A stretch of 64,000 nucleotides of DNA from assembly GCF_029360805.1 (NCBI RefSeq), contig NZ_JARKNC010000008.1:618339-682338 (forward strand). Reading direction: 5' to 3'. This DNA comes from Daejeonella sp. JGW-45. GTDB lineage: Bacteria > Bacteroidota > Bacteroidia > Sphingobacteriales > Sphingobacteriaceae. The notes beneath the pieces were generated by a model. The model had not been told where the DNA came from. It saw nothing but the letters and a program-made list of their open reading frames with translations, and searched no databases. Each line of letters opens with the position of its first letter. Position 1 is the first letter of the stretch. Both the position numbers and the translations under genes were made by a program. Shown here piece after piece: positions 554-53,063 of this stretch.

Positions 554-587
554 GTTGTAAGTTATAAGTATTACGTTATAAGTTACT
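554..587. repeat. Heptad repeat block, GTTATAA type
   Basis: About five consecutive 7-bp units related to GTTATAA/GTTGTAA directly follow the long tandem array. Same family as the blocks at 13481, 22041, 41677 and 52848. From 588 to 686 I see nothing recognisable. Confidence 0.7.
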
Positions 588-686
588 AACCAGTCGTTGA
601 CTGTTTAACGGGATGCAAACTTATATATTTTTTTGAAATAATTGAAGCTCGAAGCAAGATTATTATTGGCTGAGCTCGCTAAATTC

Positions 687-1229
687 TTAATTCTTATTCC
701 TCAATTTATCAATGCTGGTTCGGATACGCTGCAGGTACTTCTGACGGTACCAGATGTCCTTGATTTTTAGCAGGATGCCGTTGGGGTCGGAGTTGTTTTT
801 TGCATCAAACTCGTCAGTTAATTTTTTTAGCTCATCGAAGAGGGAGGCTTCCAACTGGTCTACTTCGGAAGTTAATTCCATCAAACGGGCAGGGTCTGGA
901 TCGAATTCCATATCCATCAAGGCTTCATTCACATCCATCATATCCATTAAAAATTCCTGCGGCAAGGTGTATTTATCTCCTTCCGTAAGCATCTCATGAA
1001 GCTCGAGCACATATTCAATGCGCTTTAACGGATCAGACAGGACTTTGTATGCCTTATTGTTAAGCGTGGATAATTCCATCACCTCATCCTGCTTCTCCTG
1101 CGACTCGTTCGCATAGAAATCCGGGTGATACTCTTTGCTGAAAGCATAGAATTTCTTCTTCAACTGGGATTCATCAAGCTGAAAAGTGACCGGAAGATCG
1201 TAAAACTCAAAATAGGATTTTTCTAACAT
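687..1229 (-). CDS. hscB: Fe-S cluster assembly co-chaperone HscB (J-domain)
   Basis: 180-residue J-domain co-chaperone. The N-terminal third is a J-domain with the HPD tripeptide at residues 35-37 (EYHPDFY), which stimulates the ATPase of the Hsp70 partner HscA. The C-terminal half is an acidic helical domain of the kind that binds the IscU scaffold. Length is close to the 170-180 residues usual for HscB. It is the last gene of a minus-strand run and lies 145 bp after rseP, with a heptad repeat in the gap, so it may be transcribed separately. Its partner hscA is at 50998-52848, and iscX and an Isc-type ferredoxin are at 37287-37881, so the Fe-S assembly genes are dispersed here. Confidence 0.9.
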   Translation of the reverse strand: MLEKSYFEFYDLPVTFQLDESQLKKKFYAFSKEYHPDFYANESQEKQDEVMELSTLNNKAYKVLSDPLKRIEYVLELHEMLTEGDKYTLPQEFLMDMMDVNEALMDMEFDPDPARLMELTSEVDQLEASLFDELKKLTDEFDAKNNSDPNGILLKIKDIWYRQKYLQRIRTSIDKLRNKN

Positions 1230-1292
1230 CTGATTGAAACAGGATTTATAGGATTGTAGAACTCATAGGATCAGATCGGACAAACCGGCGTG

Positions 1293-1374
1293 TTCAGTTT
1301 CAGTTTTCAGTTCTCCGCTCTCAACTTTCAACTTTCAACTTTCAACCCGATAGCTATCCGATCTCAACTTTCCC
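1293..1374. repeat. Heptad repeat block, TTTCAAC type, with degraded palindrome
   Basis: TCTCAAC (1319-1325) is followed by three exact TTTCAAC units (1326-1346), then CCGATAGCTATCCGAT, which is a decayed copy of the 18-bp palindrome at 62. Another CTCAACTTTC follows, ending right at the rseP stop codon. A TCAGTTT heptad run (about 1293-1313) lies just to the left. Confidence 0.8.
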
Positions 1375-2703
1375 CTAATTAATCACATGCTTAATAATAT
1401 CATTCCCAAACACAAACACCATCAACGTGATCAATATTACGAATCCCACCATTTGTGCCCGTTCCATGAATTTGTCTCCAAGCGGCTTGCCCTTTATCAT
1501 TTCGATAAGCAGAAAGATTGCGTGGCCGCCATCAAGAGCTGGTATAGGAAGGAGATTCATCAAGGCCAGCGCCATTGAAAGAAGACCTACAAGACTCCAG
1601 AATTTAATCCAGTTAACTTCCGACCCGAACATGGTAGCAATGCCTATAGGGCCTGTAAATGCCTTATTTGCCTTTACCTGTCCGGATGCTACCTTGCCCA
1701 GGCCTTTAGCATTGTCCATAAATGACCCCCAGGCACGTGAGGCTCCAACCGGAAGGGACTCAAAGAATCCATACTTCACAGTTTCAACAGGAATATTGAA
1801 GTACATAGGGATATATACACCGACAGTTCCTTCAGGTGAAACGTTGGTTGGTATCTTAATGGTTTCATTGTTTCGCACCACAGTAAGCTCAACCTTCTTA
1901 CCCGAGTTAGCAACTACCTGCGATTTGAATTCATCGTAAAAAGCAACCGGCTTATTATTTACTGCGATTATGCTATCGCCCTTATTCACCCCTGCCTTAG
2001 CTGCATTGCCTCCAGGTTCAATCAGCGAGATGCCTGATATTTTCACGCGAGGCTCGACAAACTGCCCGATACCTAGATCGGATACCCTCTCCAGCACATC
2101 GCCGGGAACATGGATATGCTTGGTTTCCCCGTTACGGTCTACGGTAAGTTCCGTATTTCCCAGCAGTACTTTAGAACTGGTCAATTCCTCAAAGCGCACA
2201 ACCGGTTTGCCGTTTACCGCCGTGATCCTGTCGCCGTTCTGAAGGCCTATTTCACGCCCTATTATTCCCGGGGCAATTCCGTCCGGAATCTTTGCATTTG
2301 GCACAAAGGTCTCTCCATTGTTTAGGGTGAGCATCCAGAAAATAAATATACCCAGCACAATATTCACGGCAACACCGCCAAGCATGACAATTAGTCGCTG
2401 CCAGGCTGGTTTAGCGCGGAACTCCCAGGGCTGCGGCGGACCAGCGAGCTGCTCGGTATCCATCGACTCATCGATCATACCGGAGATCTTTACATAGCCT
2501 CCCAGTGGAAGCCATCCGATGCCGTATTCACAACCTTTATAATTGAAACTAACCAGCTTAAAACCCCAGGCATCGAAAAACAGGTAGAACTTCTCTACCC
2601 TTATGCCGAAAGCGCGGGCAGCAAAAAAGTGCCCTGCTTCGTGTAAAATAATTAAAATCGATAACCCAAGTAACAGCTGACCTGTCATTACTAATCCATC
2701 CAT
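1375..2703 (-). CDS. rseP: Site-2 zinc metalloprotease RseP (M50 family)
   Basis: Inner-membrane intramembrane protease of 442 residues. The zinc motif HEAGH is at residues 21-25 in the first transmembrane segment. Two PDZ-like domains occupy roughly residues 130-310. The second metal-site motif, LLPIPALDGGH, lies near residue 390 between the last membrane helices. Order and length match the RseP family, which cleaves anti-sigma factors and leftover signal peptides within the membrane. It sits 30 bp downstream of dxr on the same strand, the common dxr-rseP pairing, so co-transcription is likely. Substrates in this organism cannot be told from the sequence; no anti-sigma gene is nearby. Confidence 0.93.
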   Translation of the reverse strand: MDGLVMTGQLLLGLSILIILHEAGHFFAARAFGIRVEKFYLFFDAWGFKLVSFNYKGCEYGIGWLPLGGYVKISGMIDESMDTEQLAGPPQPWEFRAKPAWQRLIVMLGGVAVNIVLGIFIFWMLTLNNGETFVPNAKIPDGIAPGIIGREIGLQNGDRITAVNGKPVVRFEELTSSKVLLGNTELTVDRNGETKHIHVPGDVLERVSDLGIGQFVEPRVKISGISLIEPGGNAAKAGVNKGDSIIAVNNKPVAFYDEFKSQVVANSGKKVELTVVRNNETIKIPTNVSPEGTVGVYIPMYFNIPVETVKYGFFESLPVGASRAWGSFMDNAKGLGKVASGQVKANKAFTGPIGIATMFGSEVNWIKFWSLVGLLSMALALMNLLPIPALDGGHAIFLLIEMIKGKPLGDKFMERAQMVGFVILITLMVFVFGNDIIKHVIN

Positions 2704-2733
2704 GCCTTATTCTCTGTTTTTATTTTTTAGATA

Positions 2734-3912
2734 TTAATACTTCCTGTTTGTTACTAATTCCAGCGCATATACACGTGCCTGCCTATCGGTTTCGATATAA
2801 TCGTCAAGAGTAGGCTGTTCAATAAACATAACTTCTGACATGCATTGTTCTATGATGTCACTCATGTCCAGAAATCCCAGACGATCGTTCAAAAACTCAG
2901 CCACAACGACTTCATTGGCAGCGTTGATCACGCATGGCATATTCCCGCCGCTGCGTAACGCATTAAATGCAAAATCAAGGTTCCTGAACGTCTTTTTGTC
3001 AGCCTTTTCAAAACTCAGGCCCGGAAAGTCTATGAAATCGAATCTCGGGAAATTATTCGGAATTCTTTCGGGGTATGCCATGGCGTATTGAATGGGCAGT
3101 TTCATATCCGGCAAGCCCATCTGAGCCTTCATCGACCCGTCGTGAAACTGAACGATGGAATGAATGATTGACTGCGGATGTACTATCACATCGATCTGTG
3201 AAACATCCAGTTTAAAGAGCCATTTCGCCTCTATAACTTCCAGTCCCTTGTTCATCAGTGAAGCCGAATCTATCGTGATCTTCTCGCCCATCACCCAATT
3301 GGGATGTTTTAAAGCTTCTTTTTTTGTGATCGTAGAGAGGAACTCCGAAGTTTTCCCACGAAAAGGCCCTCCCGAAGCGGTCAGGTATATTTTCTCGATC
3401 GCTGCCATATTCTCTCCTTCAAGGCATTGGAAAATGGCAGAATGTTCCGAGTCTACAGGAAGGATCTTAACTTTATGCTTTTCTGCCAGGCTTGTAACCA
3501 GTTCACCGGCAACCACGAGGGTTTCTTTATTCGCCAGGGCAATATCTTTACCAGCTTTTATTGCTGCCAGTGTGGGCTTTAAACCGGCGAATCCTACCAT
3601 AGCCGTAAGAACAAGTGATATATCGGAGTGAGTAACTATCTCACACATATCATCTATGCCACAAAGCACCGTTATTCCATGCGGGTGCAAAACGACCTGA
3701 AGTTCTTCGAACTTTTCACGGGTACCTATAACCACGTATTGCGGCTTAAACTCTATAGCCTGGGCGATGAGCCGTTCCGCATTGTTCTGCGCTGTCAGCA
3801 CAAATGCACGGAAGCGATCCGGATTCCGACGTATCACTTCCAGAGCCTGCGTACCAATGCTTCCGGTTGAGCCAAGAATGGCTATATTTTTAAGATTATT
3901 ATCTTCTTTCAC
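2734..3912 (-). CDS. dxr: 1-deoxy-D-xylulose 5-phosphate reductoisomerase
   Basis: Cytosolic enzyme of the MEP isoprenoid pathway, converting DXP to 2-C-methylerythritol 4-phosphate with NADPH. At 392 residues it has the family length. Seen: the nucleotide-binding loop GSTGSIG (14-20), NKET (128-131), the metal-binding DSEH (154-157), the substrate loop SGGPFR (from 180) and MGEKITIDSAS (from 208). Its start lies 2 bp after the stop of the upstream GH3-family gene and rseP follows 30 bp downstream, so the three probably share a transcript. Confidence 0.95.
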   Translation of the reverse strand: MKEDNNLKNIAILGSTGSIGTQALEVIRRNPDRFRAFVLTAQNNAERLIAQAIEFKPQYVVIGTREKFEELQVVLHPHGITVLCGIDDMCEIVTHSDISLVLTAMVGFAGLKPTLAAIKAGKDIALANKETLVVAGELVTSLAEKHKVKILPVDSEHSAIFQCLEGENMAAIEKIYLTASGGPFRGKTSEFLSTITKKEALKHPNWVMGEKITIDSASLMNKGLEVIEAKWLFKLDVSQIDVIVHPQSIIHSIVQFHDGSMKAQMGLPDMKLPIQYAMAYPERIPNNFPRFDFIDFPGLSFEKADKKTFRNLDFAFNALRSGGNMPCVINAANEVVVAEFLNDRLGFLDMSDIIEQCMSEVMFIEQPTLDDYIETDRQARVYALELVTNRKY

Positions 3913-3914
3913 TA

Positions 3915-5438
3915 CTATTTCTTTGAGCTTACAAACTTGTGCAGTTCGTCAGCTATAAGCCGGTCGTTCGATAATCTCGGCACTTTATTCTGCCCCCCCA
4001 GTTTCCCCTGGGCCTTCATGTAATCCCTGAATGCATCCCGTCGAAGCGCATGCATTACCAGTGGCTGCAAAACCTTTCCCTCGACCAGGTCATAATAATA
4101 TGAATTACGTTCCTGTAATGACCTGTCTACCTTCAGGCTGAATGCCTTCAGGTCTTCCGGTGGTTTCACAAACTCTACATACCATTCATGATAAGGTAAC
4201 TGATACCCTTCGTTTGTAGTTTCAGGATTAACCTGCGGGGCTACTGTAAATTCGGTGATCTCAAGATTCTCTTCCTTTGCCGCGGACAAAATTGCAGATT
4301 CCACTTCTTCTCCGATAACATGCTCACCAAAAGCTGAAATATAATGTTTAATTCTGCCGCTTACAATTATCCGGTAGGGATCTTTCGAAACAAATTTAAT
4401 GGTATCACCAATGCTGTATCCCCAAAGACCTGCATTAGTACTCATTATTAAGGCATAATTCTTATCCAATTCGACATCTCTTAGAGATAAGCGTGCAGGG
4501 TTTTCATTGAAGTATTCGTCTGCCGGAATAAATTCGAAAAAAATACCTGAATCTACGGCCAGGAGAAGGCCCCTGTCGCGCTGCGAGTCCTGGAAAGCGA
4601 TAAAACCTTCGGATGCCGGATAAGTTTCGATAGAGTCGATGCGTCTGCCGATGCTTTCTTCAAGCCGGGCCCTGTAGGGCTCAAAGTTTACACCCCCGTA
4701 TACAAAAAGCGAGAAGTTCTTAAAAATATCCTTGATCTTCTTTCCATCAGCGCGAGCAGAGAGGCGGTCGAAATACATCTGCACCCAGGGCGGGATACCT
4801 GAAATAAGCCGCATGTCCTCGTTGATAGTTTCATCGACTATCGCCTCGACCTTTTCTTCCCAATCCTCAATACTATTTATTTTGAACGACGGCAGGCGGT
4901 TGGTCTGAAGATAAGCAGGAACGTGATTTGCGACGATACCCGAAAGCCTTCCGACTGCAATTCCATTTTTATGTTCCAGCACAGGGCTCCCCTGCAGAAA
5001 AATTATCCGGCCGTCCAGGAATTTTGCTTTCCCTGTTTCGTGAATATAACAGAACATGGCGTTCTGCGCTGCCCAGATATGTTCGGGCATGGAAGCATGG
5101 GAAATAGGAATATATTTGGTACCCGAGGTTGTACCTGATGTTTTAGCCAGGTACTTAGGCTTACCCGGCCAAAGTACATCAGTTTCACCGTTGACTACAC
5201 GTTCAATATAAGGCCTGAGGCCCTCATAGTCGCGAACGGGGACATTCTTCTTGAAATCTTCGTATGAATTGATGCTTGAAAAAAGATGATCGTGGCCGAA
5301 AGCTGTCTGCCTTGCATCTTTTATCAGCTTCGCAAAAACCCTGTCCTGGGCAGCAAGCGCATTATTTTTCCATTTATTTATGCGCATCACTGCAAATGCA
5401 GCCAGGGGTTTCGCCAGCAGAGACTTAATTCCCATCAT
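3915..5438 (-). CDS. GH3 family acyl-adenylate-forming protein
   Basis: 507 residues matching the GH3 (auxin-responsive promoter) family throughout. The adenylate-forming motif TSGTTSGTKYIP is at residues 100-111. Later regions YPASEGF and GRIKHYISAFGEHV fit the AMP-binding and C-terminal parts of the fold. Plant members join amino acids to jasmonate or auxin; bacterial members mostly have unknown substrates. The start overlaps the end of the upstream membrane-protein gene by 14 bp and dxr follows after 2 bp, so it lies in a tight operon with glycosyltransferases and isoprenoid synthesis. Another in-frame ATG one codon in (5435) is equally possible. An acyl-adenylating or ligating role is inferred; the substrate is unknown. 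Confidence 0.85.
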   Translation of the reverse strand: MMGIKSLLAKPLAAFAVMRINKWKNNALAAQDRVFAKLIKDARQTAFGHDHLFSSINSYEDFKKNVPVRDYEGLRPYIERVVNGETDVLWPGKPKYLAKTSGTTSGTKYIPISHASMPEHIWAAQNAMFCYIHETGKAKFLDGRIIFLQGSPVLEHKNGIAVGRLSGIVANHVPAYLQTNRLPSFKINSIEDWEEKVEAIVDETINEDMRLISGIPPWVQMYFDRLSARADGKKIKDIFKNFSLFVYGGVNFEPYRARLEESIGRRIDSIETYPASEGFIAFQDSQRDRGLLLAVDSGIFFEFIPADEYFNENPARLSLRDVELDKNYALIMSTNAGLWGYSIGDTIKFVSKDPYRIIVSGRIKHYISAFGEHVIGEEVESAILSAAKEENLEITEFTVAPQVNPETTNEGYQLPYHEWYVEFVKPPEDLKAFSLKVDRSLQERNSYYYDLVEGKVLQPLVMHALRRDAFRDYMKAQGKLGGQNKVPRLSNDRLIADELHKFVSSKK

Positions 5439-6180: not shown

Positions 6181-6182
6181 AT

Positions 6183-8125: not shown

Positions 8126-8172
8126 AGAAAATTGAAAGTGGAAACCCGGTAGCTATCGGGTTGAAAGCGGCC
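8126..8172. repeat. Dispersed element: GAAAGTG heptads flanking CCCGGTAGCTATCGGG
   Basis: A near-perfect palindrome (about 8145-8160) is flanked by TTGAAAGTGGAAA on the left and TTGAAAGCGGCC on the right. The string GTTGAAAGCGGCCA recurs at about 37230. It lies just upstream of the glycosyltransferase start at 8120. The rest of 8173-8350 shows only a possible minus-seven box (TAAATTTG, 8324-8331) for the receiver-domain gene, with no clear upstream element. Confidence 0.6.
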
Positions 8173-13480: not shown

Positions 13481-13639
13481 GTTATACGTTGTACGTTATA
13501 AGTTTTAAGTTCACGGAAATCGATTTAGCTTTTTTAGCGTGCATCAGCCCATTTTGATTTCCCGGGAAAATTCATTTCACCTGGATTTTCGATCAGAACC
13601 GGGTTTTAACGTAGAACGTATTACGTAAAACGTATAACT
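13481..13639. repeat. Facing pair of heptad repeats, GTTATAC type / ACGTAAA type
   Basis: In the 406-bp gap between the BatA-type gene and hisG. Units GTTATAC, GTTGTAC, GTTATAA, GTTTTAA run 13481-13508. About 100 bp further the complementary family runs ACGTAGA, ACGTATT, ACGTAAA, ACGTATA (13609-13636). The two blocks are imperfect inverted copies and could fold into a long stem. The rest of the gap holds the his promoter and leader listed separately. Confidence 0.8.
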
Positions 13640-14734: not shown

Positions 14735-16021
14735 ATGCTAAAAGTTTATAAACTGTGTGATCTTGATCCTGGAAATATCAAAAAACTTTGCACACGGAAT
14801 ACAGACGTAAACAACGATATCCGGAAAACCGTGGACGATATTATCCAAAGGGTTAAAACCGGGGGCGACGCCGCACTAAAAGAATTTTCCGAAAAATTCG
14901 ACGGTATAACGCTGGACGAGCTCTATATCGGCAAAAAAGAGATTGACGCACTTGCTTTTAAGGTAGGTAATTCCGAAAAACAAGCGATTCAGCTTGCCTA
15001 TAACAATATCTGGAAATTTCACGAAGCTCAGCTCGTTAAAGAGGGCAAGATTGAAACGACTGCAGGAGTTACCTGCTGGCGGGAAACGCGGGCCATTGAA
15101 AAAGTAGGCTTGTACATCCCCGGGGGCACAGCTGTGTTGCCAAGCACCTTTCTTATGCTAGGCATTCCTGCAAAAATTGCCGGATGTGAACAAATAATTG
15201 TGTGTTCCCCCCCTCAAAAAGATGGAAAGGTAAACGCGTATCTGGCTTATTGCGCACAACTCTTAGGGATTGAAAGGATCTACCTTATAGGCGGAGCGCA
15301 GGCCATCGCTGCTATGGCCTATGGAACAGAGAGCGTTGAAAAGGTTGATAAGATATTCGGGCCCGGAAATCAATATGTAACCAAAGCAAAAACCATTATA
15401 CAATCTGAGAGCCAGACCGCTATTGATATGCCTGCCGGCCCCTCTGAGGTATTGGTAATTGCCGACGAAACTGCAAATCCGGTTTATGTTGCTGCAGATC
15501 TTTTGGCGCAGGCTGAACATGGTGCCGATAGTCAGGCTGTGCTGATCGCAGATTCACAATTAATTATCGATCAAACCATCAAAGAACTTGACAAACAACT
15601 GCCTGCACTGCCGCGTCACACTATTGCCGCTAAGGCAATAGCAAATTCATATGCCGTACTGACTGCCAGCCTGGATGAAAGTATGACGTTCAGTAATGCT
15701 TATGCACCGGAACATCTTATTCTCGCGACCGACAAATGGGAGTCTTTACTCGATAAGATAATCAATGCGGGCTCTGTATTTCTCGGTCATTTAACTCCGG
15801 AAAGCGCTGGCGATTATGCGTCCGGCACAAATCATACCCTGCCTACCAGTTCTTACGCCAGGGCATATTCCGGCGTATCCGTCGACTCGTTTGTAAAAAA
15901 GATAACTTTTCAGCATATCAGCCGTGCCGGAATCGAAAACCTGGGGCCGGCAGTAGAGGTTTTAGCTTCGTTAGAGGGCTTAGATGCGCATAAGAATGCT
16001 ATAACCGTGCGATTAAAATAA
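14735..16021 (+). CDS. hisD: Histidinol dehydrogenase
   Basis: 428 residues, the normal length. Oxidises L-histidinol to L-histidine in two NAD-dependent steps, using zinc. Seen: GLYIPGGTAVLPST (substrate/NAD loop), the signature MPAGPSEVLVIAD, AEHGADSQAVL with zinc ligands, and the C-terminal SGTNHTLPTS. It starts 19 bp after hisG. An 80-bp gap follows before hisC, containing CAGGATC...GATCCTG complementary arms, the largest gap in the operon. Confidence 0.96.
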   Translation: MLKVYKLCDLDPGNIKKLCTRNTDVNNDIRKTVDDIIQRVKTGGDAALKEFSEKFDGITLDELYIGKKEIDALAFKVGNSEKQAIQLAYNNIWKFHEAQLVKEGKIETTAGVTCWRETRAIEKVGLYIPGGTAVLPSTFLMLGIPAKIAGCEQIIVCSPPQKDGKVNAYLAYCAQLLGIERIYLIGGAQAIAAMAYGTESVEKVDKIFGPGNQYVTKAKTIIQSESQTAIDMPAGPSEVLVIADETANPVYVAADLLAQAEHGADSQAVLIADSQLIIDQTIKELDKQLPALPRHTIAAKAIANSYAVLTASLDESMTFSNAYAPEHLILATDKWESLLDKIINAGSVFLGHLTPESAGDYASGTNHTLPTSSYARAYSGVSVDSFVKKITFQHISRAGIENLGPAVEVLASLEGLDAHKNAITVRLK

Positions 16022-21000: not shown

Positions 21001-21065
21001 GAAAGTGGAAAGTGGAAAGTGAAAGCTGAAAACTGAAAACTGAAAGTGGAGAGTGGAAAGTTGGG
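21001..21065. repeat. Heptad repeat block, AAAGTGG/AAACTGA type
   Basis: Nine consecutive 7-bp units (AAAGTGG, AAAGTGG, AAAGTGA, AAGCTGA, AAACTGA and so on) begin immediately after the hisI stop codon. Same family as the TTTCAAC units at 1326, on the other strand. Confidence 0.85.
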
Positions 21066-21131: not shown

Positions 21132-22040
21132 ATGATCGAAATTAAGCTTCAGGCAACTTTATCCGGCCACCAAAATCCGATATTCACGGCAGAAAACTCG
21201 CAGAAGAAGGGAATTCTGTTTACCGCGGGGAACGACCGGGGTATAGTGGAATGGAGCCTGAAAACAATGGCTTTTATCAAAGTCATGTTTCCTGTACGAT
21301 CTTCGGTGTATGCTCTGCATTGTCCGAAAAGCGAGCCTGTTCTTCTTTCCGCAGAGCGGAGCGGGCAAGTGAACGTGTTTAATTTTATAGAACAAAAGAT
21401 CACTCACGTTCTTAACTTTCATAAGCTGCCGGTGTTCGACATTAAATCAGTGACCTCCAAGGGCGAGCTGCTTCTCTCCTCTGAAGACGGATCGGTATCT
21501 GTGTGGGATTTGAAAAGCATGCAGATGCTTTATAGATTCCAGGTTTCTTCGACTACGGTTCGTACCATAACTATAAGTCCTGATGAAACAACAGTTGCAT
21601 TCGGGTGCAAAGATAACATCATCCGGATCTATAATCTCGGCGACTATAGCCTGATTGCAGAGCTCGGTGAGCACGTCATGCCGGTAACTGCATTGCAATA
21701 CTCACCGGATGGCCAGAGGTTATTGTCTGGCGGCAGGGACGCGCAGTTGAAGATATGGGATACAACGGACTATGCACTTTTAAAAAACGTCCCCGCACAT
21801 TTATTTACTATTTACAGCATTGCTTACCATCCCGCGCTGCCGTTTTTTGCTACCGCAAGCCGTGACAAGACGATCAAAATATGGGATACGGAAAATTACG
21901 ACCTTAAAAAAACCCTGAGCTCTGAAAAAGGCTACGATATGCACAGACTATCTGTTAATAAGATCGTTTGGGATTCCGAAAACAGACTTATCTCGGTAGG
22001 TGACGATAAGTTGTTGAAAGTCTGGGATATTCAGTTTTAA
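21132..22040 (+). CDS. WD40 repeat protein
   Basis: 302 residues made almost entirely of WD40 repeats, enough for one seven-bladed propeller. Repeat ends are visible as SVWDLKS, IYNLGD, IWDTTD, IWDTEN and VWDIQF, preceded by GH-like turns such as GEHVMPVTALQYSPDG. No signal peptide or membrane helix, so it should be cytoplasmic and act as a scaffold or binding protein. It stands alone between the his operon and a convergent hydrolase gene, flanked by heptad repeats. Partners are unknown. Confidence 0.88.
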   Translation: MIEIKLQATLSGHQNPIFTAENSQKKGILFTAGNDRGIVEWSLKTMAFIKVMFPVRSSVYALHCPKSEPVLLSAERSGQVNVFNFIEQKITHVLNFHKLPVFDIKSVTSKGELLLSSEDGSVSVWDLKSMQMLYRFQVSSTTVRTITISPDETTVAFGCKDNIIRIYNLGDYSLIAELGEHVMPVTALQYSPDGQRLLSGGRDAQLKIWDTTDYALLKNVPAHLFTIYSIAYHPALPFFATASRDKTIKIWDTENYDLKKTLSSEKGYDMHRLSVNKIVWDSENRLISVGDDKLLKVWDIQF

Positions 22041-22148
22041 GTTATACGTAGTACGTTCTACGTTTGATTGGTCGTAACTAAGAAATTTCAAGCAGAAGAG
22101 TGGTGCGCTGTGCAAACGTACCACGTACCACGTACCACGTAAAACGCT
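22041..22148. repeat. Facing pair of heptad repeats, GTTATAC type / ACGTACC type
   Basis: GTTATAC, GTAGTAC, GTTCTAC (22041-22061) start right after the WD40 stop codon. After about 55 bp the facing block ACGTACC x3, ACGTAAA (22116-22143) reaches the end of the convergent NlpC gene at 22147. The arms are partly complementary and may act as a bidirectional stem. Confidence 0.8.
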
Positions 22149-22929
22149 AAAAGCGCTTGACGATCCTCAACTTGTGCGTATACTTTTTAAGCTCGTTGGA
22201 GTAAATCCCCTGATTATCTATCGGATCTATTTTCACACGACCGGAAGCGTGGATAATACGCTCACTATCCAGCATAATCCCGACATGTGTAATCCGTCCC
22301 TCTTCATTATCGAAAAATGCAAGATCACCGCCCTTCGCTTCTTGTAAAAAGCCAACCAGTTCCCCCTGCTCAGCCTGCTGGTAAGCATCCCGCTTAATCT
22401 TAATTCCAAACTGCCGGAATACCATCTGAGTGAAGCCCGAACAATCTATCCCGAAAACCGATTTCCCACCCCAGAGGTACGGGGCGTTCAAATAGAACAT
22501 CGCAGCCTCACGAATCCCGCTTCTGAAATTTTCTTTCCCCGGCTTAACCGTTTCGCCCTCGAGCTTATACCTGGTATCGCGCAGGTAGAAAAAATTATCA
22601 AGCCTTCCAGGAATATTCGATCCCGCGACCAGGTTCAGGATTTCATTGCTCGATGTCTTTACGATACGGTGGTTGATCGATAATCCTAATATAGAATTCA
22701 GGTCGTGCAAAGCTACGAAAGCCGCATGCTCGATTTCCGCAAATTGCTTCTTATCGATCCATCCTTCATAATCGTCGTATGCAGTTGAGATTCGAACCCA
22801 CTTTTCTGTTGCTTCCAACAAGGTGAAGTGATCTCCAAATAATAATTGTGAGCACATTTCACTGCGGTCGGACGGTTCCGTCCGCACAGGCACCAGAGAT
22901 AGGTTGCAAACGCCAAACTGTTGATTCAT
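22147..22929 (-). CDS. NlpC/P60 family peptidoglycan hydrolase with SH3-like domain
   Basis: 260 residues. An N-terminal bacterial SH3-like domain (about 1-65, ending GWIDKKQF) precedes a linker and a C-terminal NlpC/P60 cysteine peptidase (about 140-260). Catalytic residues: Cys163 in IDCSGF, His215 in THVGIM, His227 in IIHASG. The family cuts D-glutamyl-diaminopimelate type bonds in peptidoglycan peptides. No signal peptide is visible, so it may act on imported muropeptides in the cytoplasm, or be exported another way. Stands alone. Confidence 0.87.
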   Translation of the reverse strand: MNQQFGVCNLSLVPVRTEPSDRSEMCSQLLFGDHFTLLEATEKWVRISTAYDDYEGWIDKKQFAEIEHAAFVALHDLNSILGLSINHRIVKTSSNEILNLVAGSNIPGRLDNFFYLRDTRYKLEGETVKPGKENFRSGIREAAMFYLNAPYLWGGKSVFGIDCSGFTQMVFRQFGIKIKRDAYQQAEQGELVGFLQEAKGGDLAFFDNEEGRITHVGIMLDSERIIHASGRVKIDPIDNQGIYSNELKKYTHKLRIVKRF

Positions 22930-37229: not shown

Positions 37230-37291
37230 GTTGAAAGCGGCCAGGACTAACCGATCAGAAAAAAGCTGACAGCTGACAGCTCATAGCTATT
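37230..37291. repeat. Heptad repeat block, AGCTGAC type, with GTTGAAAGCGGCCA
   Basis: AGCTGAC, AGCTGAC, AGCTCAT, AGCTATT (37264-37291) end at the iscX stop codon. The string GTTGAAAGCGGCCA near 37230 is the same as at about 8160. Confidence 0.8.
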
Positions 37292-37529
37292 GGTTATCCC
37301 TCCATTCATAGACCCAGGCCGACTGTATCTGCTCCAAATGCCCTTCGTTGCTCTCCTCGCGGGTACCGGCAAAGTTGGGAAGACTTAGCACCCAGTCGAG
37401 CAGTTCCGTGAAACGGATCCTGTAGATCTTTGATTCGCTGAAATCGTCCCCAAACTTCTCATAGAGTCCCATTGCAATGTCTTCGTAGTCGTTCCAGTGA
37501 ATAGGAAGTTCAAATTTTTCGTTTGCCAT
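37287..37529 (-). CDS. iscX: Fe-S cluster assembly protein IscX
   Basis: 80 residues. The pattern HWNDYEDIAMGLYEKF, RFTELLDWVLSLPNFAG and AWVYEWRDNQ is the IscX (YfhJ) family; it is slightly longer than the usual 66 residues. IscX binds IscS and modulates Fe-S assembly. It follows the ferredoxin gene by 19 bp, as in the isc order fdx-iscX. Confidence 0.92.
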   Translation of the reverse strand: MANEKFELPIHWNDYEDIAMGLYEKFGDDFSESKIYRIRFTELLDWVLSLPNFAGTREESNEGHLEQIQSAWVYEWRDNQ

Positions 37530-41676: not shown

Positions 41677-41989
41677 GTTGCACGTTGTAAGTTATACGTT
41701 GTACGTTTTCTAAACGCTGTGCTAGCCGCCCAGACGTAAAACGTATAACTTACAACGTACAACTCCCTAAGGCCGGTTTCCCATATTCATTTATACGCTG
41801 TACGTTTTCTAAACGCTGTACCCGGCGCCCAGACGTAAAACGTATAACTTAAAACGTACAACTCCCTAAGGCCGGTTTCCCATATTCATTTATACGCTGT
41901 ACGTTTTCTAAACGCTGTACCCGGCGCCCAGACGTAAAACGTATAACTTAAAACGTACAACTCCCTAAGGCCAGATCCCCATATTCATG
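41677..41989. repeat. 99-bp tandem repeat (three units) built on heptads and the gdhA 3' end
   Basis: This fills most of the 402-bp gap between ccmE and gdhA; I see no gene in it. Units begin at 41692, 41791 and 41890, exactly 99 bp apart. Each holds GTTATAC/ACGTAAA-type heptads facing each other around GGCGCCCAGACG, then CTAAGGCC...CCCATATTCAT. In the third unit this is the true end of gdhA. The first two carry mutually identical copies of that end, differing from the gene at three positions. Additional heptads GTTGCAC, GTTGTAA lead in at 41677. From 41563 to 41676 nothing is recognisable. Confidence 0.9.
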
Positions 41990-43401
41990 TATGACACCGC
42001 CACTTTATTGATAGAGCTAACAAAAGCCGCAGTCCTTAAGCTGTCGATTCTCGAATTTTCCATCCTTATATCGCGGATCTCGTGGTAAGACCGGATCATG
42101 GTATCTTCCAGACCTGAATTAACAAGCTCCAGTTCTGAGGCACCTTTAATGATCATACTGCGCTGTGCAGTATCCAGGGTAACACCCGTCGATTTCTCTA
42201 CCATATTCACCAGGTTCAGGTTGGCGTTCTCTTCGTATCGCTTGTCCATACGGCCAAAAGCTACGTGAGAAAGATTCTTTAACCACTCGAAATATGAAAC
42301 CGTTACACCGCCGGCATTACAGTACATATCAGGGATCAGTATACAGCCTCTCTGTATAAGCGCATCGGCCGCAGCTGGCGTTGTTGGCCCGTTTGCTGCT
42401 TCAGCGATAATTTTAGCCTTAATATTAGCTACATTCTGTTCGGTCAGCTGGTTTTCTAAAGCCGCGGGAACCAAGATGTCACAATCCTGCTCCAGGCCTT
42501 CGGCCGAGTTTTTAAACTCTTTCTGTGCTTTTGAAAAGCCAAGGATAGAACCTGTCGTTTTACGGTGATTGAATACCTCGTCGAGATCAAAACCCTCGGA
42601 ACTATAGATCGCTCCCTCAAATTCGCAGATACCTACTATAGTAGCCCCGAACTCAATTAAGAATTTAACCGTAAAGTACCCGACATTTCCCAGGCCCTGC
42701 ACAATAACCCTCTTCCCTGATAAGCCTGCACTCAGACCAAGCTTCTTCATATCCTCCTCAACGCCCACACACTCACGGATAGCGATGGCCACACCGCGGC
42801 CTGTAGCTTCCTTACGCCCGGCAATTCCATGAAGAGCAAGCGGCTTCCCCGTTACACATCCCAGCGCATCTAATTGGCCAGGATTCATTGTCTGGTAAGT
42901 ATCAGCTATCCAACTCATCTCACGCTCACCAGATCCATAGTCAGGGGCCGGCACGTCGATCCCCGGACCAATAAAGTTTTTCTTGATAAGCTCAACTGTA
43001 TAGCGGCGCGTGATATTCTCCAGTTCAGCTATCGTGTATTCTTTCGGATTGATCTTAACCCCTCCCTTGGCACCGCCGAACGGCACATTAACAATAGCAC
43101 ACTTATAGGTCATAAGTGCGGCCAGCGCCATTACTTCATCCTCGTTCACCATCTCGCTGTAACGAATCCCACCTTTCGTCGGCGATTTATGATGAGAGTG
43201 CTCAACACGCCATGCATCAATTACTTCAAAGCCATTTCCCCTGCGTATCGGGAAACGGAAGCGGTAAACACTGTTACATGATCTGATCTGGTCAAGCAGC
43301 CCCTCAGGATGTGATGTAAATTGCGCTGCGTGATCGAAAAATTGGCATACGTCTCCGAAAAACGATGTGTCGGAGTGCGCTGCGTCTATAGACTTAGCCA
43401 T
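41965..43401 (-). CDS. gdhA: Glutamate dehydrogenase (Glu/Leu/Phe/Val family)
   Basis: About 478 residues from ATG 43401 ([11 protein letters not shown]); a longer frame begins at 43464 but is unlikely. Seen: [19 protein letters not shown], the active-site lysine segment [24 protein letters not shown], and the Rossmann motif GLGNVGYF. It reversibly deaminates glutamate to 2-oxoglutarate. It lies inside the cytochrome c maturation cluster, between ccmD and ccmE. Its 3' end is copied twice in the adjacent tandem repeat. A promoter-like pair (TTTG and CAACTTTG) and a dyad lie upstream. Confidence 0.93.
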
Positions 43402-43768: not shown

Positions 43769-43884
43769 GGTATTAGGTATCAGGTGTGAGGTGTCAGGTA
43801 TCAGGTCTGAGGTATCAGCTCTGGGCGGCTAATTTAATGATAGAGCATCTCAACTTTCCACCCGATAACTATCGGGTTTCAACT
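43769..43884. repeat. Heptad repeat block, GGTATCA type, with palindrome element
   Basis: Eight consecutive 7-bp units (GGTATTA, GGTATCA, GGTGTGA, GGTGTCA, GGTATCA, GGTCTGA, GGTATCA, GCTCTGG) run 43769-43824. Then CTCAACTTTCCA and CCCGATAACTATCGGG (43861-43876), a decayed copy of the palindrome at 62, lead to the ccmC stop codon. Confidence 0.88.
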
Positions 43885-47788: not shown

Positions 47789-47806
47789 AGGGCAAAGGTA
47801 AGGTTT

Positions 47807-47848
47807 AGCTTTGAGCTGTGAGCTATCAGCTATCAGCTATCAGCTTTT
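47807..47848. repeat. Heptad repeat block, AGCTATC type
   Basis: Six consecutive 7-bp units: AGCTTTG, AGCTGTG, AGCTATC three times, AGCTTTT (47807-47848). They lie between the helicase start and the terminator of the outer-membrane protein gene. Confidence 0.85.
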
Positions 47849-47858
47849 TGCAGACGCA

Positions 47859-47887
47859 TAAAAAAAGGCACACCTTTCGGTGCACCT
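47859..47887 (-). terminator. Intrinsic terminator of the outer-membrane barrel gene
   Basis: On the minus strand AGGTGCACC (47887-47879), a GAAA tetraloop and GGTGTGCCT (47874-47866) pair over nine positions including two G-U pairs, followed by a T run. It lies 27 bp after the stop of the gene at 47914. Confidence 0.85.
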
Positions 47888-47913
47888 CTCTTTAATTATC
47901 AGTGTCGGTGATC

Positions 47914-48531
47914 TTAGAAGTGGAACTGAACTCCGATTTGCGGGGCAAAGAAACTTGTTCCAATTGAGAACCTGTCGTAACCTGCACCCGGTAATTCGTT
48001 ACCACTTGCATCCTCAACACGGTAGTTGTTGTAAGAAATACCTCTGAATGCAAATTCAATACCGATCTTTTTAGTCGGGAAGTAAGCAAAGCCTGGAGAA
48101 ACAGCTACGCCGATAGCGGTAGATGAACCTACTTTAGCGCCAGTGTCACCACTTGCATCAGTAGCTTTAACCGTACCGAATGCCAATGGCACTGCTGCCT
48201 GACCGAAGAATTTAAACTGATCGCTTAATCCAACGTAGTATCTACCGAATGGACTTACTACAAATGCTTCATTGTAACCTGTAGGGCTCGCGGTACCTAC
48301 TTTGGCGTAGTTGTAGCCAACACCAGTTCCTAATGCGAAATTATCAGAAACGAAATAACCTACGTTAGGAACTAAAGACAAAGTCTCAGTTGCTTTTGCT
48401 CCGTCTGCATCAGATTTTTGTGAATCATAAGAAGCTGTACCACCCAGTATCCATTTTCCTTTTTCTGTTTGTGCATTTACATTTAATGCAAGTACTACTA
48501 CTGCTGTTAACGATAAAATTAACTTTTTCAT
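47914..48531 (-). CDS. Outer-membrane beta-barrel protein
   Basis: About 205 residues from ATG 48531 (a longer frame to 48582 adds an unlikely leader). Signal peptide 1-20 (MKKLILSLTAVVVLALNVNA). The mature part alternates polar and hydrophobic residues over about eight strands and ends IGVQFHF, the aromatic C-terminus recognised by the barrel assembly machinery. Its promoter overlaps a motif shared with the divergent TetR gene, and it has its own terminator. Family level: OmpX/OprF-like small barrel; function unknown. Confidence 0.88.
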   Translation of the reverse strand: MKKLILSLTAVVVLALNVNAQTEKGKWILGGTASYDSQKSDADGAKATETLSLVPNVGYFVSDNFALGTGVGYNYAKVGTASPTGYNEAFVVSPFGRYYVGLSDQFKFFGQAAVPLAFGTVKATDASGDTGAKVGSSTAIGVAVSPGFAYFPTKKIGIEFAFRGISYNNYRVEDASGNELPGAGYDRFSIGTSFFAPQIGVQFHF

Positions 48532-48579
48532 GATTGTATGTTTAAAATTTAAAGGGCCGTTATTTTTTCGACCACAGCA

Positions 48580-48609
48580 CAAAATTAGTCGAATATTATG
48601 GTCTGCAAA
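48580..48609 (-). promoter_or_regulatory. Promoter of the outer-membrane barrel gene
   Basis: On the minus strand TTTG (48609-48606), an 18-bp spacer and TAATTTTG (48587-48580): both Bacteroidetes elements. The minus-seven box lies inside AAAATTAGTCGAA (48581-48593), which recurs at 48830-48842. A TTCGAC...GTCGAA dyad spans 48567-48593. Confidence 0.65.
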
Positions 48610-48842
48610 AATATTTTAAGCCGAATTAAAATCGACTTTCGTAACCCCTTGATCTACTGTCTATATTATTTTAAGGTTACACAAACATTACCAAATTGTG
48701 ACAAATACCTCATTTTAGCAGGCAATTAAAGAATTAGCGTCTCCTGGCTGTTTTTTCATGAGACGCAAAACTTTAATCCACAGGAAATTACATTTTCCAA
48801 TTTTTTATTTGTATTTTAGAATAAATAGAAAAATTAGTCGAA
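48581..48842. promoter_or_regulatory. Divergent region with a repeated 13-mer, candidate TetR operators
   Basis: The 311-bp gap 48532-48842 separates the barrel gene from the TetR gene and contains no gene. The 13-mer AAAATTAGTCGAA occurs twice in the same orientation, at 48581-48593 over the barrel promoter and at 48830-48842 directly before the TetR ATG. A regulator binding both would control itself and its neighbour. Inferred from repetition and position. Confidence 0.45.
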
Positions 48843-49442
48843 ATGAGCGCTCCAATTCAAAAAGACGAAAAAACCCTCCGGGAGATCCTGGAAGCTGCCA
48901 GAGATCTTTTTACAAAAAACGGCCTGAAAAAGACCACGATGGATGATGTTGCCAGGGCCGTGGGCAAGGGTAAGAGTTCCTTATATTATTATTTCACCGG
49001 CAAAACAGAACTGTTTCGGGCCGTTGTACTTTACGAGCTAAAGAAGATATTGAAAGACATTCGCTTTGCTATTAATGCCGAAACTAGTGCCAGTGGCAAA
49101 TTAAAAGCATTCCTGCTCACCAGGCTGGATCTCAAGGAGAAGACCCACAATCTGGGGCAGGTGGTTTCCGAAGATATCTTTGACAACTTTAAAGAGATCT
49201 GCGAGCTTAAAGCAGATTTCGAATTAACCCAGGTTGAGATCATAAGGGAAATTGTAAAGGGCGGCATTCAGGCCGGCGAATTCAGAGACATGACTAAAGA
49301 TGAAATTGGATTTTTCTCCTGCTGGACAGCCGCAGCATTTGGCGGCCTCGAGCTTTCGATAAGTACAAACTCTGATCTTATTGCAGATAAACGTTCAATC
49401 GATAAGATAGTTGAATTTATACTCTTCGGCATAAGCCGGTAA
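48843..49442 (+). CDS. TetR family transcriptional regulator
   Basis: 199 residues. N-terminal helix-turn-helix (about 12-58): ILEAARDLFTKNGLKKTTMDDVARAVGKGKSSLYYYF is the classic TetR pattern. The C-terminal ligand and dimer domain (about 65-199) resembles the YcdC/DUF type with no clear ligand clue. It is divergent from the barrel gene, and the dihydroorotase gene follows 54 bp downstream. Likely a repressor of itself and the barrel gene. Confidence 0.9.
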   Translation: MSAPIQKDEKTLREILEAARDLFTKNGLKKTTMDDVARAVGKGKSSLYYYFTGKTELFRAVVLYELKKILKDIRFAINAETSASGKLKAFLLTRLDLKEKTHNLGQVVSEDIFDNFKEICELKADFELTQVEIIREIVKGGIQAGEFRDMTKDEIGFFSCWTAAAFGGLELSISTNSDLIADKRSIDKIVEFILFGISR

Positions 49443-49496
49443 ACCTGCCGCTTCTTATCGAATAATTTCTCAAATTTGTAAAAATCCAAACTCATC

Positions 49497-50831
49497 ATGT
49501 CTTCTATCCTGATCCATTCTGCCACCCTTGTTAATGAAAACCGGACCTTCATTGCGGATGTGTATATTAAAAATGGGCTGATCGAACAAATCGCCGGGAC
49601 GATTGACAGAAAAGCTGATAAGGTTATTGACGGCCGGGGTCTGCACTTGTTCCCCGGATGCATTGACGACCAGGTGCACTTCCGTGAACCAGGCTTAACG
49701 CATAAGGCTGATATCTTTACAGAAAGCAGGGCTGCAGTAGCTGGTGGTATTACATCCTTCATGGAAATGCCCAATACGGTTCCCAATACGCTCACACAGG
49801 AATTACTTGCCGGGAAATATGAAATTGCATCCAGAACATCCGCAGCTAATTATTCCTTTTTCATGGGTGCTGGCAATGATAACCTAGACGAGGTCCTTAA
49901 AACAGATCCAAAAACCGTGTGCGGAATAAAAGTTTTCATGGGCTCGTCCACTGGCAATATGCTGGTAGATAATGAAAAGACGCTCGAGGGGATCTTCAGC
50001 CAGGCCCCGATATTAGTTGCTGTGCATTGTGAAGATGAAGCGACGATACGCGAAAACACCGCAAATTTCAAGGCTTTGTATGGTGATAAATTGACGGCCG
50101 AGATGCATCCGCAGATCCGCAGTGCCGAGGCCTGTTATAAATCGTCTTCGTTTGCTATAGAACTGGCCAAAAAACACAATACAAGATTGCATATCCTGCA
50201 TATCTCATCAGCTTTGGAAACGCATTTATTTGAGAACTCTATTCCCTTGTCTGAAAAACGAATAACTGCAGAGGCATGCATACACCATCTCTGGTTTTCT
50301 GATAAGGACTATGATAAAAAAGGTAACTGGATCAAATGGAACCCAGCCATAAAGTCCGGCGAAGACCGGGAGGCTATTTTCAATGCCGTACTGGATGGCC
50401 GAATTGATATTATAGCCACTGACCATGCGCCTCATACGATGGAAGAAAAGTCGCAGCCTTATATTAAAGCTCCTTCAGGCGGTCCGCTAGTGCAGCATGC
50501 TTTAATTGCCATGCTTCAGTTTTACGATCAGGGTAAAATAAGTCTTGAAAAGATCGCAGAAAAAATGGCACACCATCCTGCAATTTGTTTCCAAATAGAA
50601 AAAAGAGGTTTTATACGCGAGGGATTTTGGGCAGATCTGGTGTTAGTCGATTTGTCCAGACCTACAGAGGTAACCAGAGAAAACATCTTATCCAAATGTG
50701 GCTGGAGCCCTTTTGATGGACTGATCTTTAGTTCTTCCATCCATACAACGATCGTTTCAGGACGGGTAGCTTATGAAAATGGGAAAGTAATTGAGAATGG
50801 TGTTGGGGAGAGGCTAATGTTCAGCAGGTAA
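49497..50831 (+). CDS. pyrC: Dihydroorotase (probably active)
   Basis: 444 residues, an amidohydrolase. Metal and catalytic residues are mostly present: QVHFR at 59-63 (Gln59 replaces the first His of HxHxR), GIKVFMG with the carboxylated Lys, VHCEDE, LHILHIS and ATDHAPH near residue 306. It cyclises carbamoyl aspartate in pyrimidine synthesis. To my knowledge the Gln variant is common among Bacteroidota dihydroorotases. It is the likely functional counterpart of the degenerate homologue at 10142. No other pyr gene is adjacent. Confidence 0.85.
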   Translation: MSSILIHSATLVNENRTFIADVYIKNGLIEQIAGTIDRKADKVIDGRGLHLFPGCIDDQVHFREPGLTHKADIFTESRAAVAGGITSFMEMPNTVPNTLTQELLAGKYEIASRTSAANYSFFMGAGNDNLDEVLKTDPKTVCGIKVFMGSSTGNMLVDNEKTLEGIFSQAPILVAVHCEDEATIRENTANFKALYGDKLTAEMHPQIRSAEACYKSSSFAIELAKKHNTRLHILHISSALETHLFENSIPLSEKRITAEACIHHLWFSDKDYDKKGNWIKWNPAIKSGEDREAIFNAVLDGRIDIIATDHAPHTMEEKSQPYIKAPSGGPLVQHALIAMLQFYDQGKISLEKIAEKMAHHPAICFQIEKRGFIREGFWADLVLVDLSRPTEVTRENILSKCGWSPFDGLIFSSSIHTTIVSGRVAYENGKVIENGVGERLMFSR

Positions 50832-50997
50832 TTAGCAAATGGGGGAAATGAGTAGGTTTAGTAATTAGTATGCTTGTTGGATGTGCTGTCGACCCGGAGG
50901 GGCCGCATTTGCTAATTCTCATGCCCGCGTAATAAACCCTCTAAAATCCCCTCTCTTACTTCCCATTTTCAGTAAACTACGTACCTTTACCCCTAAT

Positions 50998-52848
50998 ATG
51001 GCTACAGTATCAATCAATCTCGCTACAGGTTCGGTTCAAAAAGAAGAAATTATTGTTGGGATAGATCTTGGCACCACGAACAGCCTGGTTGCTTTTATTA
51101 ATCCGGATGGGAATCCCCAGGTAATTAATGATACGGGAAAAGGAGTGCTCGTCCCTTCTGTTGTTCACTTTCAGCCTGATGGCAGCGTCATCGTAGGCAA
51201 TGAGGCGAAAGAGCATTTAATTACTGATACCCAGAATACTATATTTTCTGTGAAACGTCTTTTGGGGCGTTCATTTGATGATATTAAAGCCCATAGCGAA
51301 TTATTTTCATACAAGATTATCGACGACGATAGTGAAAGCATGGTTAAGATCAATGCCGGAGGCAGGTACTATACCCCTATCGAGCTGTCAGCTATGGTCC
51401 TGAAAGAATTGAAAGATCGTGCCGAACACGCCTTGAAAACCGCGGTAAACAGGGCTGTGATTACTGTCCCTGCATATTTTAATGACAGCCAGAGACAAGC
51501 TACCCGCGACGCCGGTAAACTTGCCGGGCTCGATGTGTTAAGGATAGTAAACGAACCGACGGCCGCCAGTCTGGCTTACGGTATCGGCCTGGATCCTGAA
51601 GAAGAAAAAACCATAGCTGTGTACGACCTTGGCGGCGGAACATTCGACGTCTCAGTTCTGAAGATCCAGAACGGCATATTTGAGGTTCTTGCAACAAATG
51701 GTGATACTTTCCTGGGCGGGGATGATTTCGACCAGGCAATCGTTAATTATTGGATTGAGGCAAATCAGCTTCAGAACAGGATGAACGATGATACCCTTCG
51801 CCAGGCCCTGCGCCTGAAAGCTGAGGAAGCAAAAAAAGCCTTAACTACCCAAAATCTCTTTAACGATTTCGTCGGCGAAATTCCCTGTGCAATAACCAGG
51901 ATGAAGTTTGAAGAATTAATCTCTGCAAAAGTTGAGCAAACTATTCAATCCTGCAGGAATGCACTTGCTGATGCAAACCTGAATATCAGCGATATCCAGG
52001 AAGTGGTGATGGTGGGAGGCTCGACCCGTACTCCCCTCGTGAAGCGTAAGGTGTCAGAATTTTTCGCACAGGAAGTGCATGATAAGATCAACCCTGACGA
52101 GGTGGTTGCACTGGGCGCCGCCATACAGTCGGATATTCTGGCTGGTAACCGGAAGGATATCTTACTGCTGGACGTTACTCCGCTTTCACTTGGAATTGAA
52201 ACTATGGGTGGCTTAATGGATGTCATCATTCCACGAAACGCAAAAGTACCGAGTAAAGCGGGCCGGCAATACACTACCTCGATAGACGGACAGGCGAATA
52301 TGAAGATCTCTGTGTACCAGGGAGAGCGGGATCTTGTGAAGGAGAACCGTAAACTTGCTGAATTTGACCTTAAAGGTATCCCGGGAATGCCTGCAGGTTT
52401 CCCAAAGGTTGACATAAACTTCCGCCTGAACGCCGACGGCATTCTTACTGTAGAAGCTGTTGAACTGCGCTCAGGAGTAAAACAAAAAGTTGAAGTGAAA
52501 CCTACCTACGGCCTGACTGACGAGGAGGTTGAAAAGATGCTCATCGATAGCATACAAAATGCAAAAGAAGACGTCAGTAGAAGAATGCTGATCGAATCAC
52601 GCACCGAGGGTGAACAAATGGTCTACACTGTAGAACGTTTTCTTCAAAAGAACAAAGACCAGGTTTCGGAACAGGAAACACTGGACACTCAAAAACTCTT
52701 AGATGCCTTAAAAGCTGCTTTAGTTTCCGGCGATAAAGACTTGATCCATAAAAGCATTGACGAACTGAATGAATTTACCAGGCCTTTTGCAGAGCGGCTT
52801 ATGAATGTGGCCATCGGTACGGCGATGAAGGGCAGACGGGTGGAGTAG
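50998..52848 (+). CDS. hscA: Fe-S cluster assembly chaperone HscA (Hsp70)
   Basis: 616 residues from ATG 51000 region (start 50998); a longer frame from 50881 adds 39 residues that are unlike the family. ATPase domain (about 20-380): [69 protein letters not shown]. Substrate domain after about 385. Shorter than DnaK (about 640) and lacking the acidic tail, as for HscA, which releases clusters from IscU with HscB (687-1229). The stop codon directly enters a heptad repeat. Confidence 0.88.
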
Positions 52849-53063
52849 TTATACGTTATAAGTTGTACGTTATAAGTTGTACGTGAATTTCTGGTAAAGA
52901 CGACTTTTGTGTCCAAAAATAAAAGAGCCGGCGACCGAACATTGTTCCACTCCCCGGCTTTTTTCGCTTAGTGCGGTACGTTTCCAACTTATAACGTAAA
53001 ACGTACAACGTATAACCTTTAGGCGTATTGCAACTTACAACGTAAAACGTACAACATATAACT
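52848..53063. repeat. Facing heptad repeats around a terminator
   Basis: GTTATAC, GTTATAA, GTTGTAC, GTTATAA, GTTGTAC run 52848-52882, starting at the last base of the hscA stop codon. Facing blocks AACTTAT, AACGTAA, AACGTAC, AACGTAT (52986-53013) and AACTTAC, AACGTAA, AACGTAC, AACATAT (53032-53059) follow, up to the end of the next gene. A terminator sits between the arms. Confidence 0.85.
52926..52965. terminator. Bidirectional intrinsic terminator
   Basis: AGCCGG (52926-52931) pairs with CCGGCT (52954-52959), flanked by an A-rich run and TTTTTT. The loop is 22 nt. It separates convergent hscA and the hypothetical gene at 53064. Confidence 0.7.

Follow-up and report, generated by a model that had tools for sequence, protein, structure and literature searches.

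What produces the short tandem repeats that lie between the genes of a 64,000-nucleotide stretch of Daejeonella sp. JGW-45 (hereafter the window; contig NZ_JARKNC010000008.1, positions 618,339 to 682,338), and why do they keep a period of seven while their sequence changes from block to block? An earlier note on this DNA listed 14 such intergenic blocks and attributed them to one copying process able to yield heptads of any sequence. A lag-7 self-match scan with a score of at least 11, also the looser threshold used below, recovers all 14 as arrays of period 7, and they do fall into many sequence families. The period of exactly seven holds in general, although the block at 21001 contains indels and is imperfectly strict. 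For their origin we propose a different answer: each window block is probably an arm of a hairpin element, or what is left of such an arm, and the element when intact carries a gene of the family PF05635 (23S_rRNA_IVP, hereafter IVP), the product of which is proposed to bind the arms.

At the D. lutea site equivalent to 13481/13608 of the window, an inverted pair of another heptad family (TTGACAG/CTGTCAA) encloses a gene, and its product matches PF05635 (E 2.5e-26). The genome of JGW-45 itself contains five PF05635 genes, and every one of them has inverted heptad arms on its two sides; the heptad family differs from gene to gene. The intact form is intergenic and consists of a heptad array, the gene for the IVP/S23 four-helix bundle protein and an inverted heptad array. 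Four of the own copies measure 0.50–0.57 kb, and the remaining one 0.85 kb.

Loci were scored as carrying arms if they had an inverted match score of at least 13 within 420 bp and a best period score (periods 5–10) of at least 9. In a first set of IVP loci (5 from the own genome, 29 from the family, 28 from the phylum and 10 from plasmids) 56/72 pass, 52 with period 7 and 4 with period 8. Further genus loci pass in 19/21 cases (18 with period 7, one with period 8), two of 23 being left out for want of flanks. Held-out genus loci of lower score, fetched in E-value rank order after the criterion had been fixed and with the discovery locus excluded, pass in 18/20 cases (17 with period 7, one with period 8). 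In total, inverted arms accompany 93/113 IVP genes (87 with period 7, 6 with period 8), a contig-end palindrome at L160 being scored as a failure. Non-IVP genes of 90–250 aa served as controls under the same criterion: 8/257 pass in the own-genome sample (2 with period 7) and 16/552 in the named loci L009–L088 (6 with period 7). One of the latter is the D. lutea IVP gene; without it the count is 15/551 (5 with period 7), the remainder being unscreened for IVPs. Among loci L206–L255, 9/221 pass, and all 8 with period 7 are IVP genes of plasmid loci. We consider the association of heptad arms with IVP genes secure.

A best period of 8 instead of 7 is found at L143, L169, L180, L183, L185, L277, L278 and L347; CAAAGATT and TTAGTTGG are examples of such octad arms. 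At L126 (8459–9022), a 187-aa open reading frame (ORF) without a Pfam match has inverted arrays of the ACGTA family on both sides and perhaps represents other cargo of this kind of element.

The units of an arm possess a polarity. On the left arm AG recurs at the period, with a mean best-phase frequency of 0.75 over 52 period-7 IVP elements (mean 0.51 and maximum 0.65 among 200 column shuffles), and it outnumbers CT in 51/56 IVP-flanking elements, with 3 ties. The arms being inverted, AG is read towards the interior of the element from either side. Inverted arrangement is also found among neighbouring arrays: 27 of the 52 pairs no more than 800 bp apart are inverted, 13 direct and 12 neither, and for the 32 adjacent pairs within 250 bp the corresponding numbers are 18, 7 and 7. 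As a control, 1500 random draws (same-locus draws skipped) yielded 146 inverted and 165 direct pairs.

Sequence comparison shows that heptad and period (7, in some lineages 8) go with the lineage of the IVP. Among the 52 period-7 elements the distance between heptads correlates with IVP identity (Mantel r −0.41, 0/5000 permutations), also when pairs below 50% IVP identity are taken by themselves (r −0.226, 3/2000). On the IVP tree, nine heptad clusters over 55 rows require 19 changes versus a shuffled mean of 36.9 (0/300); without the genus extras (39 rows) the numbers are 17 and 26.6. Period 7 or 8 (79 rows, 7 octads) changes 3 times versus 6.8 when shuffled (0/300).

Single sites can be followed across species. 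The junction between fadJ and a thiolase gene is occupied by an IVP gene in 15/18 genus loci and lacks one in D. lutea, D. oryzae and the relative G067; inspection by eye reveals arm-like relics at this junction in D. lutea and G067, and none in D. oryzae. The arms vary by species (TAGTACA, TATTGAG, AGATGTG, GTATTGC and others in 11 elements), with a profile distance of 0.087 within elements versus 0.284 between species, the former agreement being inflated because arms were picked by maximal inverted match. In an equal search for own and foreign partners, the 5′ arm scores its own 3′ arm above the mean foreign one in 11/11 elements, and two elements have perfectly mirrored arms over 31 and 33 nt. 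The IVP gene at this junction appears from its codons to be under purifying selection (median ratio of nonsynonymous to synonymous substitution rates, dN/dS, of 0.17 for the 17/55 pairs with usable dS). Of 14 genomes with sequence upstream of hisG, 9 have arrays at that site, in several families (HisB of the window is 90% identical to that of D. lutea, 87% to that of the metagenome-assembled genome 16-39-50 and 80% to that of D. oryzae). In genome G251, about half of a 0.9-kb intergenic stretch upstream of hisG (L202, 430–1310) is made up of interleaved TTCAGAC, AACTGAT and GAACCAA blocks.

The abundance of gene-less arrays was assessed in an 860-kb sample of the own genome, comprising the window and forty 20-kb stretches with overlaps removed, four of which, on contig C1, were chosen because of hits found there beforehand. 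At a score of at least 14 it contains 71 period-7 arrays, 9 of period 14 and 4 of period 21, and no more than 5 for each other period from 2 to 30, while the same lag-match scan finds none in one first-order Markov shuffle; the marked period-7 excess anticipated by the earlier note is therefore present. TRF reports 64 period-7 arrays in the sample and 0 in the shuffle. Omission of the window and the four C1 stretches leaves 39 period-7 arrays in 716 kb (62 at the looser threshold), with 0–2 arrays for each of the periods 5, 6, 8, 9 and 10. Two statements on placement also hold up: 102/109 arrays (score of at least 11) are intergenic though ~85% of the sample is coding, and, of 57 oriented arrays that follow a gene on the same strand, 24 begin within 7 nt of its stop codon. 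TAG is over-represented among these stops (13/24 versus 143/621 in gene calls of at least 150 aa). Arrays are rare in divergent gaps (6/98 arrays, whereas 94/415 of all gaps of at least 40 bp are divergent).

Away from the five own IVP genes, the sample holds 94 arrays, and 48 of them are nearest to the heptad of one of these five among the 52 compared (L129, 21; L133, 15; L132, 8; L131, 4; L130, 0). Random sets of five IVPs average 9.0, and 1/5000 reaches 48. One array adjoins a 41-bp remnant, 88% identical, of the 3′ end of an IVP gene with a heptad common to both, and such relics suggest gene loss. The gene can be absent at sites where relatives carry it, leaving pairs or single arms like those of the window. 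Two genus genomes without IVP (G067 and G077) have 0 arrays in 181 kb; eight with IVP have 2.0 to 16.4 per 100 kb. The own density is 12.7 per 100 kb, or 8.7 without the window and the C1 stretches.

Several window blocks are inverted partners of each other, namely 13481/13608, 22030/22116, 41677/41734 and 52848/52986 with 53028, and three additional arms lie inside 41734–41961, beyond the blocks first noted. The arrays of the window are as follows, "nearest" referring to the closest IVP heptad.

548 to 585, plus strand: solo heptad array of the AAGTTAT family (AG strand plus); nearest L145/L144, distance 0.06–0.08.
1298 to 1346, minus strand: heptad array TTTCAGT/TTTCAAC; nearest own-genome L133.
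13481 to 13511, plus strand: left arm of an IVP-less inverted pair between a BatA-like gene and hisG; nearest L145/own L129.
13608 to 13638, minus strand: right arm of the 13481 pair; the nearest IVP heptads match the minus strand.
21001 to 21061, plus strand: heptad array GAAAGTG/GAAAACT after the hisIE stop; nearest own L133.
22030 to 22064, plus strand: left arm overlapping the stop of a WD40 gene.
22116 to 22154, minus strand: right arm (ACGTACC), in a convergent gap ahead of an NlpC/P60 gene.
37264 to 37297, strand unassigned: heptad array AGCTGAC; nearest L186 (other genome).
41677 to 41707, plus strand: left arm of the GTTGTAC family; nearest own L129.
41734 to 41763, minus strand: right arm of the 41677 pair.
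41692 to 41992, plus strand: 99-bp unit repeated three times in tandem (hairpin arms and spacer), with further arms at 41833–41862 and 41932–41961.
43769 to 43818, plus strand: heptad array GGTATCA (CAG+GTAT); nearest L150/L140.
47804 to 47845, strand unassigned: heptad array AGCTATC; nearest L147/L186.
52848 to 52884, plus strand: left arm starting at the TAG stop of an Hsp70 gene; nearest own L129.
52986 to 53021, minus strand: right arm, first of two.
53028 to 53062, minus strand: right arm, second of two.

Two copies of the tandem at 41692–41992 share an identical 69-nt spacer.

We hypothesize that the IVP protein binds its cognate heptads with one contact per 7 bp, at the level of DNA rather than RNA. 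The arms would grow through 7-nt slippage, and their likeness would be kept by copying within the extruded hairpin together with selection for binding. The whole unit may then be a self-maintaining and at least occasionally mobile element, a protein-coding intervening sequence (IVS) outside rRNA, in which IVP-less copies would play the part that REPINs (doublets of repetitive extragenic palindromic, REP, sequences) play toward RAYTs (REP-associated tyrosine transposases).

Several observations weigh against this proposal. Heptad binding by IVP and mobility of the element are both inferred, neither having been observed, and inheritance of gene and arms together could produce the tracking of heptads without any recognition. 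The IVP loci are non-independent: many belong to one genus, some look orthologous, and the arms of L258 and L259 are the same. Many arrays are unpaired, and in gene-less pairs the AG polarity is weaker (12/18, with 5 opposite). Besides the inflated agreement of arms at the fadJ–thiolase junction, the own partner ranks top of all in only 3/11 elements of the equal search, because species share heptad families. The order of unit variants is mirrored above the shuffle mean in 62/67 loci, but the arms had been chosen by that same score. The 24 inter-array spacers compared lack a common sequence across loci, apart from one separate palindrome and one 22-nt match, and so give no sign of gene-less copies transposing as units. 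Array density within the genus shows no significant dose relation to IVP number (Spearman 0.48, p 0.16, n=10), and beyond it five IVP-rich genomes have 2 arrays in 200 kb altogether and five IVP-less ones 1 in 200 kb. As IVP-rich genomes elsewhere in the phylum are poor in arrays, gene-less copies accumulate only in some lineages.

The explanation closest to that of the earlier note is plain replication slippage, in which a polymerase with a preference for 7 nt acts on any sequence and IVP genes merely occupy such gaps. Among long simple repeats, heptads were the commonest class in most of the genomes surveyed, and the footprint of the polymerase has been proposed as the reason (Mrazek 2007, as cited in PMC4679880). 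Growth in 7-nt steps, which the note also supposed, is supported, for example, by the relative G247, where a 3′ arm of ~24 units faces a 5′ arm of ~4. However, arrays made in this way would not be expected to pair in inverted orientation with a shared AG polarity, to follow the IVP phylogeny in heptad and period, or to agree within each element, nor would they be absent from the 181 kb of the two IVP-less genus members. These facts, together with the flanking of PF05635 genes, speak against the idea of one copying process indifferent to sequence; slippage alone fails to explain the pattern, and we consider this explanation very unlikely.

Selection of the arms as RNA hairpins in operon transcripts (for processing, stability or termination, like the RNase III-cut stem of an rRNA IVS) would agree with inverted arms, an intergenic position and the scarcity in divergent gaps, and RNase III is known to excise rRNA IVSs (PMC4990558). 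However, mismatches compatible with G.U pairing show no excess (63 G.T versus 95 A.C; 5 versus 16 in gene-less pairs), so that RNA-level selection is unsupported by this comparison and a DNA-level constraint or copying is favoured, if indirectly. The loops of intact elements, several hundred nt long, do not suit such hairpins either, and we regard this possibility as unlikely. A domesticated host function, by which IVP and arms regulate the neighbouring operon and are kept as a pair at fixed sites, could be read from the occupancy of the fadJ–thiolase junction and from the low median dN/dS (0.17) of the IVP gene located there. But neighbour genes are unrelated across loci (his, fad, hsd, cas, methylase), and the three relatives named above do without the gene at this junction, which makes a host role quite unlikely. 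The hairpin element with its IVP gene remains the reading that we prefer.

PF05635 is widespread: at E of no more than 0.001 it is found in 116/148 Bacteroidota genomes sampled, 70/101 family genomes and 18/20 genus genomes. Among 27 matching records of named plasmids 10 were fetched, and their IVP loci pass the arm criterion in 10/10 cases. The hosts are Treponema, Monoglobus, Bernardetia, Euhalothece, two Nostoc, Dolichospermum, Anabaena, Planktothrix and Chlorohelix, from the phyla Cyanobacteriota, Spirochaetota, Bacillota, Bacteroidota and Chloroflexota. Some of these elements lie within restriction, CRISPR or helicase–methylase clusters (L227, L232, L233, L235). One locus has the order hsdS–IVP–hsdR, and in another the IVP gene is situated between cas2 and cas1 on the opposite strand. 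The order helicase–IVP–methylase occurs in Chlorohelix and also in Dolichospermum, where a hypothetical gene is annotated before the methylase. The Dolichospermum arm directly follows the conserved ...LQPG of the helicase and provides its stop. The helicase–methylase junction is free of IVP genes in five other plasmids (two Chroococcidiopsis, Calothrix, two Nostoc); the annotated genes of C. thermalis overlap there by 4 bp, and in Chroococcidiopsis CCNUC1 a short heptad-like array is present without a gene. Presence and absence here may reflect gain or loss, neither direction being proven.

Of the known systems, the closest is the IVS of 23S rRNA. S23p genes are found in hairpin IVSs of Coxiella and Leptospira 23S rRNA, which are sporadic and have been called selfish, and PF05635 proteins are said to be without known function (PMC4990558). 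Both have a PF05635/S23p ORF in the loop of an inverted-repeat stem, which in Coxiella is 28 bp long (PMC4990558). The elements described here share the ORF, according to their PF05635 matches, and the terminal inverted repeats able to form a stem, found at 93/113 loci. They differ in that the arms are built of heptads, with a sequence that tracks the protein, and the own and plasmid IVP genes with examined neighbours sit between protein genes rather than in 23S rRNA.

A single gene with inverted repeats on either side and many gene-less genomic copies is also the organization of REP/REPIN–RAYT systems. The likeness extends to gene-less copies cognate to a resident gene, seen here (48/94) and not in the five distant IVP-rich genomes, but the flanked gene is PF05635 and not a Y1 transposase. 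A Y1 transposase was rejected as a candidate mover: the single PF01797 gene of the own genome, at position 396760 of contig C1, is not near the own IVPs, and no array was found within ~2.8 kb of it (L127). PF05635 resembles Avd of diversity-generating retroelements (PMC10053308). A search of the own genome found no reverse transcriptase near the five IVP genes, and the single PF00078 match, at position 402008 of contig C9, is far from them, so that a reverse transcriptase was likewise rejected.

Heptads themselves have been described repeatedly, and the tandem 7-mer excess that marks heptanucleotide long simple repeats is seen here as well. Rehm 2015 (PMC4692102) reported the heptamers GGGAATC of Xanthomonas and GGGGA(C/T)T of Nostoc, read as G-quadruplexes; as in Daejeonella, they are intergenic, few lie between divergent ORFs, and some overlap stop codons. 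Their 70 and 75 convergent pairs we interpret as having the G-strand inward, as in Daejeonella. XCC0516 (2gsc), one of the two solved PF05635 structures found (the other being 2rld), is an IVP homologue; it belongs to X. campestris (PMC10053308), and X. campestris ATCC 33913 is among the genomes of Rehm 2015. The available text of that paper has 0 occurrences of "four helix" and "XCC0516". MacGregor 2015 (PMC4679880) described TAACTGA heptads in Beggiatoaceae, Cyanobacteria and five Bacteroidetes, a group for which the earlier note knew of no description. These are likewise heptad arrays at gene ends, and TAACTGA reversed reads CAG+TTAT, which fits the unit syntax here; they differ in being mostly direct sets upstream of starts, and the role proposed for them is post-transcriptional. 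The available text of MacGregor 2015 does not contain the words "four helix". Our literature searches, covering titles and the beginnings of abstracts with most subscription papers outside their coverage, found no work joining heptad repeats and the PF05635 family.

We speculate that PF05635 proteins in general read phased heptad or octad DNA in a sequence-specific manner, one unit per protein contact, and drive a single cross-phylum class of hairpin elements, that the heptads of Bacteroidota, Nostoc, Xanthomonas and Beggiatoaceae all belong to this class as arms or arm remnants, and that the heptad serves as a co-evolving address code; the chances of this wider proposal seem to us slightly short of even. 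The discussion of heptanucleotide repeats in bacteria goes back to 2007 at the latest, with polymerase slippage proposed as their cause (PMC4679880). They and rRNA IVSs are each known separately. Their connection would bear on two old puzzles, the origin of the repeats and the target of the PF05635 family: the protein gains a candidate target, the period of 7 (8 in some lineages) a suggested reason, and pairings of protein and repeat sequence become available across five phyla. It also draws attention to elements that lie between genes and alter gene ends in metabolic, CRISPR and restriction operons.

Rfam and tRNA searches gave no match. A dispersed palindrome similar to CCCGATAGCTATCGGG is present at 43850–43884 and 8141–8167 of the window and at 14994–15027 of L106. 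The 860-kb sample has 10 matches to its core, and at 5 of these a heptad array lies no more than 40 bp away; the palindrome is possibly a separate REP-like element.

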